Origin: Longimicrobiales bacterium
GTDB lineage: Bacteria; Gemmatimonadota; Gemmatimonadetes; Longimicrobiales; RSA9
Assembly (NCBI GenBank): GCA_035461765.1
Contig: DATHUY010000111.1
Coordinates: 1 to 35,033 of the forward strand
DNA length: 35,033 nt
Direction: 5' to 3'
Positions 3,825-12,357 of the stretch are shown in pieces. Positions within the stretch are counted from its first letter, which is position 1; each line of letters begins with the position of its first letter. The translations under genes and the position numbers were made by a program. The notes under the pieces were generated by a model. It worked only from the letters and a program-made list of their open reading frames with translations. It ran no database searches and was not told the DNA's origin.

Positions 3825-5822
3825 TCACAGCGGCTCCGTCGGGGACGGGCCGTCGATGTTCTGCATGGCCTCCCGCACTACGTCAACGAGCGCGTTCGGC
3901 GTGAACGGTTTCTCGAGGAAATGGTCGTGCTCGCCGATCCTGCCTTCGCGCACGAGTGACACCTCCGAGAAGCCCGACATCAGGACGATGCCTGCGTCCG
4001 GATTCGTCTCGCGGATACGCGTCGCCAGCTCGTCGCCGCCGAGATGGGGCATGGTCAGGTCGGTGACGACCACATCGATGCCTGCTTTACCATCCGCAAT
4101 GCGAAGCGCTTCCTCTCCATCCGCAGCTTCCACGACCTCATAGCCGCTGGCCTCGAGCGTGCGCTTCGCAAGCGCGCGCACCGACGCATCGTCCTCGACG
4201 AGCAGGACCGTACCCGTTCCGCTCTGGCTCATGCCTTCACTGATCACGGTAGTGGTCGCATCACCGGCTTCCTGCACAGGCAGATACACCCTGAACGTGG
4301 TGCCCCTGCCGGACTCGCTGTAAACCGAGATGTGACCGCCGGCCTGCTTCACGATTCCGTAGACCGTCGACAGTCCGAGCCCGGTGCCTTCCGCCTTCGT
4401 GGTGAAGAACGGTTCGAAGATCTGCAGCTGCGTCGCCTGGCTCATTCCCTCACCGGTATCACTCACGGCGATCTTGACGTAGTCGCCGGGCGTGAGATCC
4501 AGACCGCGAGCGGAGCCGATCTGATCGACACTGACGCGCGACGTGGTGATCGTGATTCCGCCGGTGCCACCGATGGCGTCGCGCGCATTCACGACCAGGT
4601 TGACGATGACCTGCTCCAGCTGGCCGGGATCGATCAGTACGTTCGGCACATCCTCGAGCACCGTGTCGAGCGTGACATCGGCGCGGATCAGACGGCGGAG
4701 CAGCTTCTCGATCTCGGTGATCAGCGTGTTCGGGCTGAGCGAGATGGGTTTGCTCGGCTGTTTGCGTGCGAACGTCAGCAGCTGCCGCGTCAGCTCGGTT
4801 GCGCGGTCCGCCGCCTTCCTGATCTCTTCCGCATCATCACGCGAAGCGAGGTCCTGCGGCAGATCCTCGAGCAGGAACTGCACGTGACCCTGAATGGCCG
4901 TGAGGACATTGTTGAAATCGTGAGCGATGCCGGACGCGAGACGGCCGACCGCGTCCATCTTCTGCGAGTGCCGAAGCTGCTCTTCGCTGCGGCGCAGGTT
5001 CTCTTCCGCCCGCATCTGCTCTGACAGATCCCGCAGAACGATCGCGAAGGATGTCGGCTGCTGCCCCATGTCGTTGAGCCGCGCGATCGTGACGTGCGCC
5101 GGCATCGTCGCACCGTTCGAACGACGCACGTCCATCTTCATTTCCGCCCTGCCGGTTCCCGCCGCACGTTCCAGGAGCGCGACAATCTGCGCGGGCTCCT
5201 GCACCAGCAGTACCGCCAGGTGCCTGCCCATGACGTGCTCCGCCGCAATGCCGGTCAATCTCTCGGCACCACTGTTCCAGCTCGCGATCTGGCCGCGTTC
5301 GTCCGCTACCAGCATCGCGTGATCACGCACGACATCCGACAGCTGATCCAGGAACTGCCGCAGCCTGTGCTCCTTCACACTGGCATGCCGTGGCCTCCCG
5401 ACTTCGTTCGTGCAGTCCCGTATCAGCACCAGCAGATCACGATCCGCGAAACGGCTCGCCCGCAGCCTGAGCACCCGGCGGGTGCCATCGCGCCGCTGCC
5501 GCGAGATGACCACGAGCCCCGAGCCCTCGACCTCCACCGCGCCCAGCAGGCGGAGCAGCCAGGGTGCATTCGCTCCCGCGAGTCGCGGCTGCGCGCCGTG
5601 CTTCCAGCCCAGCAGCGCGGCGGCATCCCGGTTCCAGGCCAGGACCCGGCCGTCGGAGGCGAGGACAGCGGCGGCGGCGGACAGCTGATTCAGCCGACCG
5701 ACGACATCCTCCGGCATCTGCCTGCGCAGACCGCCCGCTCCCTCAGGCCCTCGTTCGACCACACGCCCCCCGCGCCACTGATCGCGCCGGCGACCATCGC
5801 CGGCGCGTTGACTGCGCCCCAT
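3825..5822 (-). CDS. PAS-domain hybrid sensor histidine kinase with C-terminal receiver
   Basis: A soluble 665-residue hybrid kinase. From the N terminus: an Arg/Gly-rich lead (1-35), a PAS-like domain (about 40-140), a second PAS domain (about 155-270, SWNSGAERLTG), a short coiled coil, a dimerisation/phosphoacceptor helix with GIAHDFNNVLTAI (His301), an ATPase domain with N box NLVVNARDA, G1 DTGEGM and G2 GTGLGLSTV, then a receiver domain with acidic pair EDD, phospho-acceptor Asp588 (VVVTDLTMP) and the conserved KPF lysine. No membrane helix is seen, so the signal is probably cytoplasmic. The start at 5822 is four bases past the stop of the lasso precursor but lacks a clear ribosome site; the ATG at 5717 is a good alternative. 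It may be read through from the lasso operon. Confidence 0.9.
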   Translation of the reverse strand: MGRSQRAGDGRRRDQWRGGRVVERGPEGAGGLRRQMPEDVVGRLNQLSAAAAVLASDGRVLAWNRDAAALLGWKHGAQPRLAGANAPWLLRLLGAVEVEGSGLVVISRQRRDGTRRVLRLRASRFADRDLLVLIRDCTNEVGRPRHASVKEHRLRQFLDQLSDVVRDHAMLVADERGQIASWNSGAERLTGIAAEHVMGRHLAVLLVQEPAQIVALLERAAGTGRAEMKMDVRRSNGATMPAHVTIARLNDMGQQPTSFAIVLRDLSEQMRAEENLRRSEEQLRHSQKMDAVGRLASGIAHDFNNVLTAIQGHVQFLLEDLPQDLASRDDAEEIRKAADRATELTRQLLTFARKQPSKPISLSPNTLITEIEKLLRRLIRADVTLDTVLEDVPNVLIDPGQLEQVIVNLVVNARDAIGGTGGITITTSRVSVDQIGSARGLDLTPGDYVKIAVSDTGEGMSQATQLQIFEPFFTTKAEGTGLGLSTVYGIVKQAGGHISVYSESGRGTTFRVYLPVQEAGDATTTVISEGMSQSGTGTVLLVEDDASVRALAKRTLEASGYEVVEAADGEEALRIADGKAGIDVVVTDLTMPHLGGDELATRIRETNPDAGIVLMSGFSEVSLVREGRIGEHDHFLEKPFTPNALVDVVREAMQNIDGPSPTEPL

Positions 5823-5826
5823 CTGA

Positions 5827-5961
5827 CTACCAGTCGACCTTCACGTCGGAGGTGTTCTTCGCCGACATGATCTCCCAGTACTCACCGCCGAATCCCTTCG
5901 TCTCCTTCACCGCGTCACCATGCTCCGTGATGGTCGGCGGGGTGTAGGGCTTCTTTTCCAT
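5827..5961 (-). CDS. Lasso peptide precursor (A gene)
   Basis: A 44-residue peptide. Residues 1-22 are the leader and contain the lasso recognition pattern Y6-x2-P9-x-I11-x3-G15-x5-T21-x-G23, with Thr at position -2 of the cleavage site. The core is residues 23-44, begins GFGGEYWE and ends in Asp-Trp. Counting Gly23 as core residue 1, core positions 7 and 9 are Trp and Ile and only position 8 (Glu30) can form the macrolactam, so an 8-residue ring and 14-residue threaded tail are predicted. A strong ribosome site GAGGAG lies 7 bases before the ATG. It sits downstream of B1, B2 and the cyclase on the same strand, 59 bases after the cyclase stop. Leader logic and ring rules are established for the family; the actual product is inferred. 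Confidence 0.93.
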   Translation of the reverse strand: MEKKPYTPPTITEHGDAVKETKGFGGEYWEIMSAKNTSDVKVDW

Positions 5962-5968
5962 GATTCAT

Positions 5969-5974
5969 CTCCTC
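5969..5974 (-). promoter_or_regulatory. Strong ribosome binding site of the lasso precursor
   Basis: GAGGAG on the minus strand, 7 bases before the ATG at 5961. It is one of the strongest ribosome sites in this region and fits high expression of the precursor relative to the enzymes. Confidence 0.8.
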
Positions 5975-6000
5975 GCAAGTATGAAGTGCGCCATTACAGG

Positions 6001-6018
6001 CGCGTGAAAGTTCACGCG
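6001..6018. repeat. Inverted repeat between lasso cyclase and precursor
   Basis: CGCGTGAA-ag-TTCACGCG is a perfect 8-bp inverted repeat lying two bases after the cyclase stop codon and 39 bases before the precursor ribosome site. As RNA it can form a 7-bp stem with a 4-base loop. No T-run follows, so a classical terminator is unlikely; it may be an RNA-processing or stability element, or a protein site. Confidence 0.6.
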
Positions 6019-6020
6019 GC

Positions 6021-7811
6021 TCATGCCGCGCTCACGGTCAACTCCGCAGCGCCCGTGTGGACGCCATTGCGCACGGACAGCCACGTCTCGAGCGCCAGTG
6101 CACTGAACAGCTGTACGTTGTTCACTGCGATGCCGCGCCGCGCTTCGTCCACCGCACGGCGGAGCGCGCCGGCATCGATGCAGCCCAGCTGCGCCAGTAT
6201 CGGATCGCGCAGCATCGCGTCCAGACGCGGCTTCTCGCGATGCAGCGACCACAGGATCCTTGCGTCGATACCACCCTTGGTCGAGCGCATGCGTACCTGC
6301 TCCGGCAGCACATCCCGTGTCGCCTGCCGCAGGATCCACTTGCGTGCATTCGGCCGCACCCGCTGCGTGGCTGGAAGTCGCAGCGATGCCTCGACCAGCG
6401 GCCGGTAGAGGAACGGGTATCGCATCTCGATCTCGTGACCGTACGGCCACCGCTCGAGCCACGCAGGCAGCGCATTCAGGTTGGCCGTGATCTGCCGGGC
6501 GAAGCGGTGGCTGCCCGCCATGCGAGAGCCCGTGCCGGTACAGCCCGCGAAGGAAGGTGCCAGCCAGTGCGGTCGCTCGACACGCTGTCCCGAGCGCGAC
6601 AGGAACGGATCGAGGAGGTAGCGGCGACCGACGCTCCAGAAGGACTGCCGCATGGCCACTGACCAGGCCGTCACTTCGCCAACCGCGTCGCGGATCCGAC
6701 CCTTCGCCGCGAGGTCCGTGATGTAGTCGAGGTTGCCGTGGAGGTACTGGTCGGCGCCGAAACCGCTCAGCAGCACCCGGCCGCCCGCCTGCCGCACGGT
6801 ATTCCACGCGCGTCGATCCCGCGCATGGAACGGGTAGAGCGGCGACGGCTGATCCGTCATGGGTGGCGCTTCGCCGTCATCCTGCCAGGCCCAGTAGTCG
6901 CGAACCTGCTCGTTGCGCAGATCGTAGCGCTGCACGACCGTGTCTGAATACGCGCGCTCGTCGCCCTCACCGAGCGTGTCGACGATCGTGATCGTGTTGA
7001 CGATCCGCCTGTCCTCCACGCCGGCTGCATTCGACAGCGCCACGATCGACGATGAATCCAGACCCCCCGACAGATGCGCCCACGTCTCTTCCGCGCCTTC
7101 CACGCGGGATTGTACCGACTCCTCGAGAAGTGAACGGAACCGCTGGCAGTTCTCCTCTTCGTCGCCGTCCTCGGCGGGCACGAACTCTTCGGCGCGCCAG
7201 TAGCGCTCCGGGCTCTGCACGGTGCCGCGCTGGCGCACCAGGCTGCCGGCGGCGATGGGCGTGATGCCGCGCCACACCGTCGCCTCCAGGCCCGCTGTCT
7301 GACCGCTCAGGAAGTCGGCGATGTACTCGAAGTCATAGCTCTCGTCGATCCGCAGCGGTTCGATATCCGACGAAAACAGCTGCAGGCCCGGCGCCGCACG
7401 CCGGTACAGGGGCCTGACGCCGAATGCGTCGCGGACGGCCAGCAGCTTCTGCGCGCGCGCGTCCCAGCAGACGAAGGCGAAGTCGCCGAGCAGCCGCGGT
7501 ATGACGCCCTCGCCCCTGCGGTCGATGGCCGCCAGCACCAGCTCCAGATCGGTGTGTGCCTGCGCGCTCACGCCGGCCAGACCGGCCACTTCCGAACGGT
7601 TGTCCAGCCGCACGTCGCCCGCGCCGATCAGGCCGCCGAAACGGCCGAGCATCTTGCGATGCTGCCCCGGCCGTTCCGCGGCCACTGCGGCGAACGGTCC
7701 TTCGACGATGGAATGAAGCGAAGCTCCATCCCGCTTGAGGCGCGTGATGTAACCGAAGACATCCGCCTTCGACAGCGACTCGCCGCGGGGCCGCAGCGCG
7801 CAAACGTACAT
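6021..7811 (-). CDS. Lasso peptide cyclase (C protein, asparagine synthetase-like)
   Basis: A 596-residue asparagine-synthetase homologue. The N-terminal half resembles a class II glutaminase domain (LLGDFAFVCWD, AVRDAFGVRPLYRR) but the start is Met-Tyr-Val-Cys, without the catalytic Cys2, so it should not use glutamine. The C-terminal half has the ATP pyrophosphatase loop LSGGLDSSS (about 247-255), which adenylates the Glu side chain of the core so that Gly1 can close the ring. ATG at 7811 is two bases past the B2 stop; upstream in-frame sequence overlaps B2 and is not conserved. Length and domain order match lasso cyclases. The next gene is the precursor. Ordinary AsnB is excluded by the missing Cys2 and the B1/B2/A neighbours. 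Confidence 0.93.
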   Translation of the reverse strand: MYVCALRPRGESLSKADVFGYITRLKRDGASLHSIVEGPFAAVAAERPGQHRKMLGRFGGLIGAGDVRLDNRSEVAGLAGVSAQAHTDLELVLAAIDRRGEGVIPRLLGDFAFVCWDARAQKLLAVRDAFGVRPLYRRAAPGLQLFSSDIEPLRIDESYDFEYIADFLSGQTAGLEATVWRGITPIAAGSLVRQRGTVQSPERYWRAEEFVPAEDGDEEENCQRFRSLLEESVQSRVEGAEETWAHLSGGLDSSSIVALSNAAGVEDRRIVNTITIVDTLGEGDERAYSDTVVQRYDLRNEQVRDYWAWQDDGEAPPMTDQPSPLYPFHARDRRAWNTVRQAGGRVLLSGFGADQYLHGNLDYITDLAAKGRIRDAVGEVTAWSVAMRQSFWSVGRRYLLDPFLSRSGQRVERPHWLAPSFAGCTGTGSRMAGSHRFARQITANLNALPAWLERWPYGHEIEMRYPFLYRPLVEASLRLPATQRVRPNARKWILRQATRDVLPEQVRMRSTKGGIDARILWSLHREKPRLDAMLRDPILAQLGCIDAGALRRAVDEARRGIAVNNVQLFSALALETWLSVRNGVHTGAAELTVSAA

Positions 7812-7813
7812 GA

Positions 7814-8212
7814 TCAGACTCCGAGACCGGGGAAGGCGGCGAACGTGAGCGGCAGATTCTCCGATTCGCTGACCGGCCTGCCACCCGCTTCGACCCAGGC
7901 GTGGGCGTAGAACGGACGCGGCTGCACTCCCAGCCGGAGCTCCGCAGCCACACCGCGCCGGCGCAGCAGCACCAGGAGCGTCAGGGACTGCTCCAGGCAG
8001 AGGGCGCGGCGCGGATAGAACGCCGCAGCCAGCGCTACGCGATGAGCCGTCGCCTCGATCAGCTCGTCCGGACGCGACTCCGCAGCAGACGCGGGTGTCA
8101 CGCGGCGCAGGAAGGCCAGCGTGCGGCGCAGACCGATGACGCGCGAGAGCACATCCATGCACAGGAGAGTGGCCAGGCAGGACAGGACGCCGGGTGGACG
8201 CTGCGTATTCAT
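7814..8212 (-). CDS. Lasso peptide leader peptidase (B2, transglutaminase-like)
   Basis: A 132-residue protein of the lasso B2 family (transglutaminase-core cysteine protease), which cuts the leader after the residue that follows the conserved Thr. Cys72 in RRALCLEQSLTL and His104 in YAHAWVEAGGRP match the catalytic Cys and His; the third catalytic position, 12 residues after the His, is Glu116 here. The N-terminal 60 residues are the helical part typical of B2 proteins. It starts by an ATGA overlap with the B1 stop codon and ends two bases before the cyclase, so B1-B2-C is translationally coupled. Confidence 0.93.
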   Translation of the reverse strand: MNTQRPPGVLSCLATLLCMDVLSRVIGLRRTLAFLRRVTPASAAESRPDELIEATAHRVALAAAFYPRRALCLEQSLTLLVLLRRRGVAAELRLGVQPRPFYAHAWVEAGGRPVSESENLPLTFAAFPGLGV

Positions 8213-8526
8213 GCGGTCACCACCAGACGGCGCCGGCGCAGATCCGTGATGAACTTCTGGATGTCCGCCTGCACGAGGTCGGCCGGAGCGTCGTATTCCT
8301 CGCAGACACGACGCGTCACCGAGGCCGGGCTGCCGCCATTCTCGATCTCGCGCCACGCCACCGTACCGACCTCATCGAGGCCGAGATACACCGAACGCCT
8401 GAGGTCCAGCAGGACCGCGACGCCGTCCCGCTCCGCCACGAGGACGTCCCGTGACGGACGCAGCGGAGCGTCCTGCCGCACTGTCCCGGAAGCCCTGCGG
8501 CGCCGTCCCAGCAGCTGGTCGAACAT
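8209..8526 (-). CDS. Lasso leader-binding protein B1 (PqqD-like RRE)
   Basis: A 105-residue PqqD-like RiPP recognition element. The core (VLLDLRRSVYLGLDEVGTVAWREIENG, in two segments) is the usual PqqD wing of beta strands followed by helices with a Tyr-x-Leu-Asp signature. Such proteins grip the precursor leader and hand it to the B2 protease. The ATG at 8526 is preferred over the ATG at 8550 because GGGAGG lies 6 bases before it, whereas the upstream ATG has no ribosome site. It is the first gene of the lasso operon, just downstream of the direct-repeat array, and overlaps B2 by four bases. Confidence 0.9.
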   Translation of the reverse strand: MFDQLLGRRRRASGTVRQDAPLRPSRDVLVAERDGVAVLLDLRRSVYLGLDEVGTVAWREIENGGSPASVTRRVCEEYDAPADLVQADIQKFITDLRRRRLVVTA

Positions 8527-8532
8527 TCCACG

Positions 8533-8538
8533 CCTCCC
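8533..8538 (-). promoter_or_regulatory. Ribosome binding site deciding the B1 start
   Basis: GGGAGG on the minus strand, 6 bases upstream of the ATG at 8526. Its position supports the shorter B1 reading frame over the alternative at 8550. Confidence 0.7.
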
Positions 8539-8583
8539 TGTGTCAGCCATGATTCCAAGCTAATCGGCAGGCGCGGCAGGCGA

Positions 8584-8631
8584 GTCAGCGTAACGTCAGA
8601 AGTATGTCAGGAACTCGTGGGGAAATGTCAG
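8584..8631 (-). promoter_or_regulatory. Pho-box-like direct-repeat operator of the lasso operon
   Basis: Four CTGAC pentamers occur in the same orientation on the minus strand, with 5' ends at 8631, 8610, 8599 and 8588, i.e. spacings of 21, 11 and 11 bases. The inner copies read CTGACAT-ACTT-CTGACGT-TACG-CTGACTC, 7-bp repeats with 4-bp spacers, the geometry of OmpR/PhoB-family sites (the E. coli pho box half-site is CTGTCAT). The array lies between the stop of the response regulator and the start of B1; a TTAGCT-like -10 element could sit around 8562-8567. Binding by the adjacent regulator is inferred. Confidence 0.72.
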
Positions 8632-8647
8632 GAGTCTGTGAAGTTGC

Positions 8648-9334
8648 TCACGCCTGAAGCCGGTAGCCCCGCTTTCTGACGGTCACCAGATGCCGGGGGG
8701 CGGCGGGGTCATCCTCCAGCTTGCGGCGCAGCTCTGCGACGTGTGTGTCGACCGTGCGGCTGAGCACGGTCCCGCGATGACCCCATACCTCCAGCAGCAG
8801 ATCCTGTCGGCTGGCTACGGCACCGCCACGACCGGCCAGCGCCATCAGCAGCGAGAATTCACGGTCCGTCAGCTCGACCGCCTCGCCCCGTCGAGTCACG
8901 CGCCGCGCTGCCGGATCGATGCGCACGTCCCCGAACTGGAACGTCTGCGCCGACGTGGCACGGTCGTCCTGTGACGACCGACGCAGCAGCGCCTCCACGC
9001 GCGCCAGGAGCTCGAGGAGGCTGAACGGCTTCGTGACGAAGTCGTCCGCACCCATTCGGAAGCCCCGCACCTTGTCCGCTTCTTCGCCCTTGGCCGACAG
9101 GATCAGCACCGGAGTGCTGTTGCCTTCATCCCGCAGCGTCCGCAACACGCGGTAGCCGTCCAGGCCGGGCATCATGAGGTCGAGGATGATCAGATCGGGT
9201 CGGCTGGACCGGGCTTCCCGCAGGCCGGCCAGGCCGTCCTCGGCTACGGAGATGTCGTAGCCCTCGATCTCCAGGTTGTTGCGGAGGCCGAACGCAAGGT
9301 CCGGATTGTCTTCAACGATGAGTATGCGGCGCAT
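8648..9334 (-). CDS. OmpR/PhoB-type response regulator
   Basis: A 228-residue two-domain regulator. The receiver domain (1-115) has the acidic pair in VEDN, phospho-acceptor Asp52 (IILDLMMPG), Ser80 (ILSAKG) and Lys102 (VTKPFS). The C-terminal winged helix (about 130-226) carries the typical ELTDREFSLLMAL, SRQDLLLEVWG and RTVDTHVAELRRKLE blocks; this class binds tandem direct repeats about 11 bp apart. It follows the membrane kinase gene by 21 bases and its stop lies 16 bases from the CTGAC repeat array that precedes the lasso genes, which makes the lasso operon its most likely target. Confidence 0.93.
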   Translation of the reverse strand: MRRILIVEDNPDLAFGLRNNLEIEGYDISVAEDGLAGLREARSSRPDLIILDLMMPGLDGYRVLRTLRDEGNSTPVLILSAKGEEADKVRGFRMGADDFVTKPFSLLELLARVEALLRRSSQDDRATSAQTFQFGDVRIDPAARRVTRRGEAVELTDREFSLLMALAGRGGAVASRQDLLLEVWGHRGTVLSRTVDTHVAELRRKLEDDPAAPRHLVTVRKRGYRLQA

Positions 9335-9355
9335 TACGTCCCTGGCACGTCCGAA

Positions 9356-11002
9356 CTACGATGCGGCTGCGAAATCACCCGCCTGATCGCTGCGAACGTA
9401 TGCATCAGGGAACTGCACGACAATGCGCGTGCCCCGGCCCGGTGCGGCTTCGGCCCACGCGTCCCCGCCGTGCAGCCGCGCCAGCTCACGCACGACGGCC
9501 AGTCCGATGCCGCTACCGGTCACACGCGATTCGATGTCGCGCGGAAGACGGTAGAACGACTCGAACACCCGAGACCGCTCCTCTGCCGGGATTCCCGTCC
9601 CCTCGTCGTCCACCCAGAGACGGGCCACGTCATCGAACAGCGCTGCACCGACCGTGATACGCTGCCCCGCCGGGCCATACTTCAGCGCGTTGTCCACCAG
9701 GTTGATCAGGATCTGCCGCAGCGCCATCCGGTCTACCTCGACGGTGATGTTCTCCTGCAGCTCCGTGCGCAGCTCCACGTCGCGGTTGCGGCTCAGCAGC
9801 GTGAAGCTCTCCACGGCATGCCGCACCTCCTCCGCGAAATGCGTCGGCTCCGGCGCCACCCGCGCGCGCCGGCCGCCTTCCGTCTTTGAGAACAGCAGCA
9901 CGTTCTCCACCAGGTGCGCTAGACGACGCGCCTCCTGGTCGATGATCTCCAGCGACCTCCGCCGCTCCACATCCGAGCGCACACGTCCGAGCAGCAGCGT
10001 TTCCGTGAACATCCGGATCTGCGCCAGCGGCGTGCGCAATTCATGCGATACGCCGGACACGAAATCCGCACGCAGCCGCGTCAGCTCCGCTTCCCGACGC
10101 ACCTGCAACAGCGCCATCGCCAGCAGTGCCCCGATCACCAGCAGCAGCATGATCATCGTCAGGCGCTCCGCCACTGGATCCGCGCCGAACTGCAACAGAT
10201 CCACTGCCGCAGGCTGCGGCCCGACCGCAAGCGTGAGACCGTATACCGGTGTGCCTACCGAGCCCCGCTGGAACGCCTCACTCGACCCCGCGCCGAACAA
10301 CTGCGTATCACCGACATAGGCCGATCGCGCAAACAACTCCTCCGCGGTCGCGCCCGGCACCGTCGAGGTCTGGAGCAGCCGCGCCTTCGTCGCTGCAAAG
10401 GCCAGCATCTCCTGCGACGTGACACGGTCCAGCACCACGCCGGTGATACGCGGAGCGGTTGCGCCATCCTCCGAGATCACGAAGACCAGTGCACTCACGG
10501 TCGTCGTGTCCGTCTCGATGAAGTAGAAGCCGCCCCGTAACGCGTCGTGGAACTTCGAAATTTCGCCCACAGCAATGCGCGCCAGCACCGCCGGTCCGAC
10601 ACGCGCATCGACCGGGTCACCCGACCATTCCACCGCACCGGTTACCGCATCGATGGTGAATGCCGATGGAATCCGCTGTCCGGGACTGCATATTGCGCAG
10701 ATGTCCGCCACCCCCACCGCCTCCCTCAGCGTGTCGAGCGAGAGCTGCGGCTTCATCACGTGCTGCGCATAATGGGGGATCAGCGATCCGGCATAGGTGT
10801 TGTAAAGCAGGCTCCAGTCCTTCAGGGCCGTCTGCGCCGTCTTGTCCAGCGTCTTGCGCGCCAGCTCCGCGCGGTCACGTTCCGCTGCGCTCGCCCGCCA
10901 CGCCACCACCCCGGTCAGCACGAACACCAGCGCCAGCACCCCAACCAGGAAGGCCAGGTGCCGGCGCGGATTATCGAGCTGCTCCAGAAGACGGTTGATC
11001 AA
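9356..11002 (-). CDS. Membrane sensor histidine kinase, partner of the regulator
   Basis: A 548-residue membrane kinase. Membrane helices at about 15-37 and 281-300 enclose a sensor domain of roughly 240 residues that contains a CxxC pair (ICAIC, Cys102 and Cys105). After the second helix come the phosphoacceptor helix DFVSGVSHELRTPLAQIRMF (His320), N box LINLVDNALKY, G1 DEGTGIP and G2 GSGIGLAVV. No HAMP domain is obvious. The frame opens with TTG at 11002; no in-frame ATG upstream fits. It lies upstream of, and on the same strand as, the response regulator and the lasso operon. The signal sensed is unknown; the CxxC could bind metal or respond to redox. Confidence 0.92.
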   Translation of the reverse strand: MINRLLEQLDNPRRHLAFLVGVLALVFVLTGVVAWRASAAERDRAELARKTLDKTAQTALKDWSLLYNTYAGSLIPHYAQHVMKPQLSLDTLREAVGVADICAICSPGQRIPSAFTIDAVTGAVEWSGDPVDARVGPAVLARIAVGEISKFHDALRGGFYFIETDTTTVSALVFVISEDGATAPRITGVVLDRVTSQEMLAFAATKARLLQTSTVPGATAEELFARSAYVGDTQLFGAGSSEAFQRGSVGTPVYGLTLAVGPQPAAVDLLQFGADPVAERLTMIMLLLVIGALLAMALLQVRREAELTRLRADFVSGVSHELRTPLAQIRMFTETLLLGRVRSDVERRRSLEIIDQEARRLAHLVENVLLFSKTEGGRRARVAPEPTHFAEEVRHAVESFTLLSRNRDVELRTELQENITVEVDRMALRQILINLVDNALKYGPAGQRITVGAALFDDVARLWVDDEGTGIPAEERSRVFESFYRLPRDIESRVTGSGIGLAVVRELARLHGGDAWAEAAPGRGTRIVVQFPDAYVRSDQAGDFAAAS

Positions 11003-11131
11003 GTCCCCGTTCCCGGGTCTGAGGGGTGCGGTTGCCAGCCCCGGGCATCACCCGGGAGCTCCAGTGGCGCGCGTCGCCGTGACTGAATGGAATGTACGTA
11101 TGCAATCTACTCCGCGATCACCTCACATCTC

Positions 11132-11146
11132 AAGGGCATAGCCCCT
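11132..11146 (-). terminator. Weak hairpin after the glycosyltransferase
   Basis: On the minus strand AGGGGC-TAT-GCCCTT can form a 6-bp stem (one G-U pair), about 15 bases beyond the stop of the glycosyltransferase gene. There is no T-run, so this is only a candidate. A second perfect repeat, CCCGGG-catca-CCCGGG (11040-11056), lies in the leader of the sensor kinase. Confidence 0.3.
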
Positions 11147-11160
11147 GATCTGTCCGGAAA

Positions 11161-12357
11161 TCATACATTCGACGGCCGCTCCACGCTCCGGGGACCCTCT
11201 TCCACACGGTATTCCCGACCCTTCCACGCAACCCGCGGGCCCTTGACGATGCTGCGCACAACCAGACCCGCTGCGGCCAGGGCACCCAGGGGGTAGGTGA
11301 GCGCGTAGGGCAGCGGCACACGCTGCGCGGCGTGGGCGAGCAGCCAGAACAGGAGTGAAGCGGCCGTTACGGCCACGCTCCAGCCCTGTACCCAGCCGCC
11401 GAGGGGTGTCATCAGAACGGTCAGCAGGATGACGGGCGGGACGACCCACATCCCGATGAGGAAGATGGCGATCAGCCAGGGGACGACGGGGGCGGCCCAG
11501 CCGGGTGAGGCCCGGCGTGAAGCGATGGCGAGGTTCTTGGTCCAGCCCTCGATGATGCCGCGGAGCGAGCGGTACATCCGCGTCTCCATGAGGTCCTCGG
11601 CATGGGCGATGAGAATGCGGCGTCCGGCGGCGACCAGTCGCTGGGCGATGCGCTGGTCCTCGACGATCTCCGCGCGCAGAGCATCGTGTCCGCCGATGGC
11701 GTCATAGGCCTCGCGCCGGATGAGCATGAACTGGCCGTTGGCGATCACGTCGCGCGGCCTGTGAGTGCGGTTGACGCGTTCGAGGTTGATGAAGCGGAGT
11801 GAGATGAGTGCGAAGATGTGGGGGAGGATGAGGCGCTCCCAGAGTCCGATCATCAGCTGTCGTGGCATCACGCTGGTCATGTCCGCGCGGCGGCTCGTGA
11901 GCGCACCGACCGCGTGGCCGAGCAGTCGTTCCTCGTGGCGGGTGTCCGCGTCGGTGAACAGGAGCAGATCGCCCTTTGCGCGGCGGTAGCCCTGCCAGCA
12001 GGCCCACGGCTTACCGAGCCAGCCGTCGGGCAGCGGCTGGCCATCGACGAGCTGGACTTTTCCGTCGGCGTGATCGGCGAGGATCCGTACGATGTCGCCG
12101 GTACCGTCGGTGCTGTCGTCATCGACGACGATGATCTCGTAGTTGGGGTAGACGGTGTTGAGCAGGCTGGCGAGGCAGACGCTGATGTTGACGGCCTCGT
12201 TGCGCGCAGGAACGATGATGGACACCAGCGGCGCATCATCGGGTGCCGGCGGCGGGAACGAGGACAGGCGCGGCCGGCGCAGCAGCATGAGCGGCATGAT
12301 GAGGAGCATGGCGATCCACGGCAGCGACGCGAGCAGCTGGAACGCGTCCGGCATCAT
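11161..12357 (-). CDS. Family 2 glycosyltransferase, membrane-bound
   Basis: A 398-residue GT-A fold glycosyltransferase. An N-terminal membrane helix (about 8-26) precedes the catalytic domain: VSIIVPARNEAVNI, EIIVVDDDSTDGT, the DxD metal motif in LLFTDADTR, and the acidic EDQRIAQRL block, followed by RGIIEGWTKNL. Three hydrophobic segments in the last third (about 290-370) anchor it again. The arrangement resembles enzymes that act on lipid acceptors such as carotenoid glycosyltransferases or the hopanoid-associated HpnB group; which acceptor is used cannot be told. It is divergent from the class V aminotransferase with a 56-base shared promoter region. Confidence 0.88.
   Translation of the reverse strand: MMPDAFQLLASLPWIAMLLIMPLMLLRRPRLSSFPPPAPDDAPLVSIIVPARNEAVNISVCLASLLNTVYPNYEIIVVDDDSTDGTGDIVRILADHADGKVQLVDGQPLPDGWLGKPWACWQGYRRAKGDLLLFTDADTRHEERLLGHAVGALTSRRADMTSVMPRQLMIGLWERLILPHIFALISLRFINLERVNRTHRPRDVIANGQFMLIRREAYDAIGGHDALRAEIVEDQRIAQRLVAAGRRILIAHAEDLMETRMYRSLRGIIEGWTKNLAIASRRASPGWAAPVVPWLIAIFLIGMWVVPPVILLTVLMTPLGGWVQGWSVAVTAASLLFWLLAHAAQRVPLPYALTYPLGALAAAGLVVRSIVKGPRVAWKGREYRVEEGPRSVERPSNV

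Follow-up and report, generated by a model that had tools for sequence, protein, structure and literature searches.

The window (the whole 35,033-nucleotide stretch analyzed here, from a Longimicrobiales bacterium) very probably contains an intact operon for the biosynthesis of a lasso peptide, one that is new as a sequence but known as a kind. The initial annotation had described four minus-strand genes in the order B1-B2-C-A, running from 8526 to 5827, and these are arranged as it described, the B1 stop codon TGA and the B2 ATG sharing the bases ATGA (8212 to 8209) and two bases separating the B2 TGA from the C ATG. It had also called the cluster complete, which holds for the biosynthetic core but does not extend to an exporter or immunity gene, none being linked; and its four-gene extent, although sound for those genes, leaves out an upstream pair encoding a histidine kinase (HK) and a response regulator (RR), together with a box of direct repeats (Table 1). 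What we add is a precise prediction of the product and the recognition of this conserved sensor-regulator pair and its box.

Several boundaries of the operon merit comment. For B1, the start at 8526, an ATG preceded by GGGAGG and the one adopted initially, is favored over the upstream alternative because relatives use the equivalent short start, the B1 equivalents in G009 and G001 beginning at the inner ATG. At codon position 3, the G+C content of both B1 and A is of the coding type. Beyond A, an inverted repeat without a T run possibly forms the 3′ end of the transcript. A hairpin between C and A was considered as a conserved regulatory element and rejected, being weak (z of −1.55, with 15 of 200 shuffles as good) and replaced by different hairpins in relatives. 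Directly after A, at 3825 to 5822, lies a gene for a PAS/CckA-like hybrid sensor kinase whose longest-frame start overlaps the GC-rich inverted repeat, such that its true start is probably further in; we excluded this kinase from the system because G001 has mqnD straight after A, with no such kinase.

Table 1. Features of the lasso operon and its upstream region (window coordinates)
Feature	Position	Strand	Remarks
HK, PhoR/PnpS-like sensor kinase, proposed lasso regulator	9356..11002	(-)	HisKA + HATPase_c
RR, OmpR/PhoB-type response regulator	8648..9334	(-)	Response_reg + Trans_reg_C
Proposed response-regulator box, CTGAC repeats spaced 21, 11, 11	8584..8631	(-)	Same spacing in G009
B1, PqqD-like leader-binding protein (RRE)	8209..8526	(-)	Pfam PqqD; alternative start 8550
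B2, leader peptidase	7814..8212	(-)	NF033537, Transglut_core3
C, lasso cyclase (best match), asparagine-synthetase-like	6021..7811	(-)	NF033535 best of NCBIfam; Pfam Asn_synthase
A, lasso precursor, 44 aa	5827..5961	(-)	NF033521 above cut-off
Perfect 11-bp inverted repeat CGCGCCGGCGA-TGG-TCGCCGGCGCG	5783..5807	(-)	Directly 3′ of A; read in sequence

Profile searches, which the initial annotation had proposed as a check, came out in favor of a lasso cluster. B2 matches the lasso leader peptidase model NF033537 at 85.3 bits (cut-off of 33) and Pfam Transglut_core3 at 87 bits, and it carries a Cys in RRALCLEQ, a His in FYAHAWVE, and an acidic Glu 12 residues past the His; the Cys and His are kept in relatives, and the acid of the Cys-His-acid set is a Glu at the position where McjB has Asp. 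B1 is PqqD-like, as annotated (Pfam PqqD, 53.6 bits), and falls under the cut-offs of both narrow NCBI lasso B1 models; the solved chains closest to it are the lasso RREs TbiB1 (5v1u; E of 1.8e-9) and TfuB1 (6jx3; E of 2.8e-5). The first residues of C are MYVC, which puts a Tyr at position 2 and bears out the reported lack of Cys2 (the C proteins of relatives likewise have none), and it keeps the ATP motif SGGLDSSS. Of the NCBIfam models, the lasso cyclase model NF033535 is the best for C, at 217.5 bits, ahead of asparagine synthase (160.3 bits) and NF033561 (albusnodin/ikarugamycin cyclase; 151.8 bits), but this score lies below the cut-off of 525 set for what is an NCBI “exception” model, and C is thus best placed as a lasso cyclase without being certified as one. 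Pfam Asn_synthase matches C at 127 bits. The subthreshold score and the similarity of C to the asparagine-synthetase-like macrolactam cyclases of NF033561 are what speak for a non-lasso RiPP (e.g., an unthreaded macrolactam), a reading that we consider very improbable given that a lasso model is the best for C, that the models passed by B2 and by the leader are lasso models, and that the structures closest to B1 are lasso RREs.

Support for the lasso identity that is independent of these searches comes from synteny and precursor comparison. Relatives of B2 at an E value of 1e-8 occur in 34 of 395 same-phylum genomes, many of them 45 to 54% identical to it, and the arrangement HK-RR-B1-B2-C recurs in G001, G003, and G005, which represent three other genera of the family; C is 46 to 50% identical to the C of the syntenic relatives. 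Synteny with G001 extends via A to mqnD, a gene that also lies near the window cluster, and the two precursors are 54% identical over 35 aa; the A genes of G003 and G005 are out of view because both contigs end inside C. Most retrieved loci having C place a precursor gene just 3′ of it, at times as part of a tandem of two or three. In the order-level relatives L062, L064, and L066, one to three tandem precursors have cores resembling GxxGxxLELINFRP, with no transporter motif nearby. A search of the literature library for lasso peptides with Longimicrobium gave nothing, and none of its papers that mention both lasso peptides and Gemmatimonadetes or Gemmatimonadota refers to lasso peptides in the title.

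The leader of A, MEKKPYTPPTITEHGDAVKETK, has the YxxP motif and a Thr at −2 and fits the lasso pattern as initially suggested, matching NF033521 (lasso_leader_L3) at 19.8 bits against a cut-off of 19; A is the sole match above that cut-off in its own genome. When the window precursor and 23 from related clusters are aligned on this Thr, every one of the 24 cores carries a Glu or Asp at position 8 (20 precursors) or 9 (4 precursors); 5,000 shuffles of the cores averaged 4.2 and never exceeded 11 of 24. We selected the 24 manually from the scan output; most come from loci whose C is at least 34% identical to that of the window, and they include related, hence nonindependent, sequences; having been picked by leader pattern, their Thr at −2 is partly built in, but an acid at 8 or 9 was no selection criterion of the scan. 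The pattern of Thr at −2 and acid at 8 or 9 places the predicted ring closure of the window peptide between Gly1 and Glu8, against Glu5. The core does carry a Glu5 as well, and closure of the ring on this or another acid, or a core that begins elsewhere, would still leave a lasso operon; such a reading has very little probability, as no relative has an acid at position 5, Glu8 is the only acid in the corresponding stretch of the closest relative (GMAGAAWE), and we know of no lasso peptides with five-residue rings. A search of the literature library for the ring GFGGEYWE gave no match.

From sequence-based evidence (genes, families, synteny, precursor pattern, and repeats), we infer enzyme activities, product, ring position, and regulation as follows. 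A would be translated as its 44-residue precursor, whose leader B1 would bind via the YxxP region; B2, acting as a cysteine protease, would cut after Lys22, two residues beyond the conserved Thr; and C would activate the side chain of Glu8 with ATP and link it to the Gly1 amino group, so that the ring closes around the tail. The predicted core, GFGGEYWEIMSAKNTSDVKVDW, would thereby yield a disulfide-free class II lasso peptide (no Cys) with the 8-residue ring GFGGEYWE, a 14-residue loop and tail (IMSAKNTSDVKVDW), and a monoisotopic mass of 2500.137 Da. Transcription would be switched by the adjacent PhoR/PhoB-like pair, acting at the direct repeats of 11-bp spacing that immediately precede B1.

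Regulation of the operon by this pair at these repeats is probable, if less secure than the identity of the operon itself. The RR is 64 to 69% identical to the RR directly upstream of the lasso genes in G001, G003, and G005, and the HK, for which the best NCBIfam model is PnpS/PhoR at a score under the cut-off, has a counterpart at the same place in these three genomes and in G009. PhoB-type response regulators bind 11-bp direct repeats, and the gap between RR and B1 contains TGAC direct repeats at this spacing near a presumed −35; we infer that the RR acts there. The same-genus G009 shows identical CTGAC spacings of 21, 11, and 11; TGAC is spaced 11, 21, and 11 in the G001 gap, and the repeats of G003 and G005 are degenerate at 11 bp. 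Shuffling gave P values for 11-bp repetition of 0.001 in the window, 0.002 in G009 and G005, 0.026 in G003, and 0.15 in G001. Allowing up to three mismatches, the longer box has four matches in 12 genomes and none in a backward control, three of the four lying at lasso-type promoters (equivalents of the B1 promoter) and one at another site. The lasso genes of G009 are only presumed, its contig (L114; G009:C138) ending 231 bases past the RR; they may have been lost to assembly rather than being absent, because in the terminal stretch of the contig (6749 to 6979) the box and a B1-like start are immediately followed by the break. A repeat with a 19-bp period lies upstream of the box in that contig.

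Within the window's own genome, three exactly spaced CTGAC repeats occur only at the window site and at C24:24529-24555. This second 21-11-11 box (L129, G000:C24:17000-31000, at 7530 to 7577) lies between a gene for a HAD phosphatase and a divergent gene for a CDC48-like AAA ATPase, and a −10-like CATATT follows it. We considered an ABC transporter near the C24 box as the missing exporter and rejected it because an opposite-strand gene separates it from the box and it resembles the ABC pair commonly located next to a TesA-like gene.

The pair in the window is apparently dedicated to the lasso operon. As a family, the pair is not solely a lasso regulator, because in several members of the bacterial family HK-RR homologues have no lasso genes next to them. 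They lie beside other genes in G002, G007, and G011, which is why we think that the lasso operon probably either came under the control of a preexisting regulator or disappeared from those lineages. This wider occurrence, the lack of a linked exporter, and the metagenomic (MAG) origin of the assembly would also suit a cluster that is silent or decaying and to which the kinase-regulator pair is an unrelated neighbor. Such a situation is unlikely, as the reading frames of all cluster genes are intact, the catalytic motifs are retained, and synteny and box are conserved across genera.

Our search for export and immunity functions in the window was negative: the scanned proteins include no ABC transporter, no S9-type peptidase that could represent an isopeptidase, and no linked immunity protein, and scanning the first 20 kb for motifs revealed neither a transporter nor an isopeptidase. 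No transporter motif was found near the close relatives of the cluster. In the more distant relatives L071 to L073, an ABC-transporter-like gene lies in the neighborhood of B1 and B2. Elsewhere in the window's own genome is a second lasso cluster (L010, G000:C160:58000-77900, at about 4688 to 11736 on the minus strand), comprising genes for an HprK-like kinase, B1, B2, C, an ABC transporter, and a nucleotidyltransferase (NTP_transf_5), with the candidate precursor MTKATWVRPVLVRKPVSETAQGAGTNNDALGGEYPVQS; its gene set resembles that of paeninodin clusters (for the paeninodin kinase, see PMC9266682).

Reading the window operon as intact and sensor regulated, one might go further and envisage a lasso subfamily of the family that is governed by a dedicated PhoR/PhoB-like sensor through a distinctive TGAC 11-bp box shared with one unlinked pair (the HAD phosphatase and CDC48-like ATPase genes) and that lacks an exporter, the peptide therefore acting within the cell or envelope or leaving by the transporter of the second cluster. 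We offer this extension as a speculation, conceivable but unlikely. The value of the present analysis lies in the prediction of a specific lasso peptide together with its exact mass, in 24 related precursors that fix its predicted ring position, and in a candidate regulatory site that could explain when such clusters switch on.

Compared with known systems, the predicted product is closest to microcin J25, burhizin, and caulosegnin I, class II lasso peptides whose Gly1-Glu8 ring has eight residues, with which it would share Gly1, Glu8, the lack of Cys, and the B and C chemistry; the window differs in having separate B1 and B2 genes, A in last place, and no ABC transporter gene nearby. Separate RRE and peptidase genes are a feature of the fusilassin (TfuB1) and Thermobaculum TbiB1 clusters, the source of the B1 relatives with solved structures, but clusters split in this way have the order A-C-B1-B2, in contrast to B1-B2-C-A with an upstream HK-RR pair. 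The tandem repeats spaced at 11 bp near a presumed −35 and the OmpR/PhoB-type domains are shared with PhoB-type regulators, although the repeat in the window is TGAC and not a Pho box. There is also precedent for a lasso cluster that encodes a two-component system: the class I clusters for humidimycin and MS-271 contain genes for a histidine kinase and for response regulators (PMC7168211). Those clusters specify disulfide-bonded class I peptides and have several transporter genes, whereas the window combines a predicted class II peptide and no transporter with PhoB-type repeats before B1.
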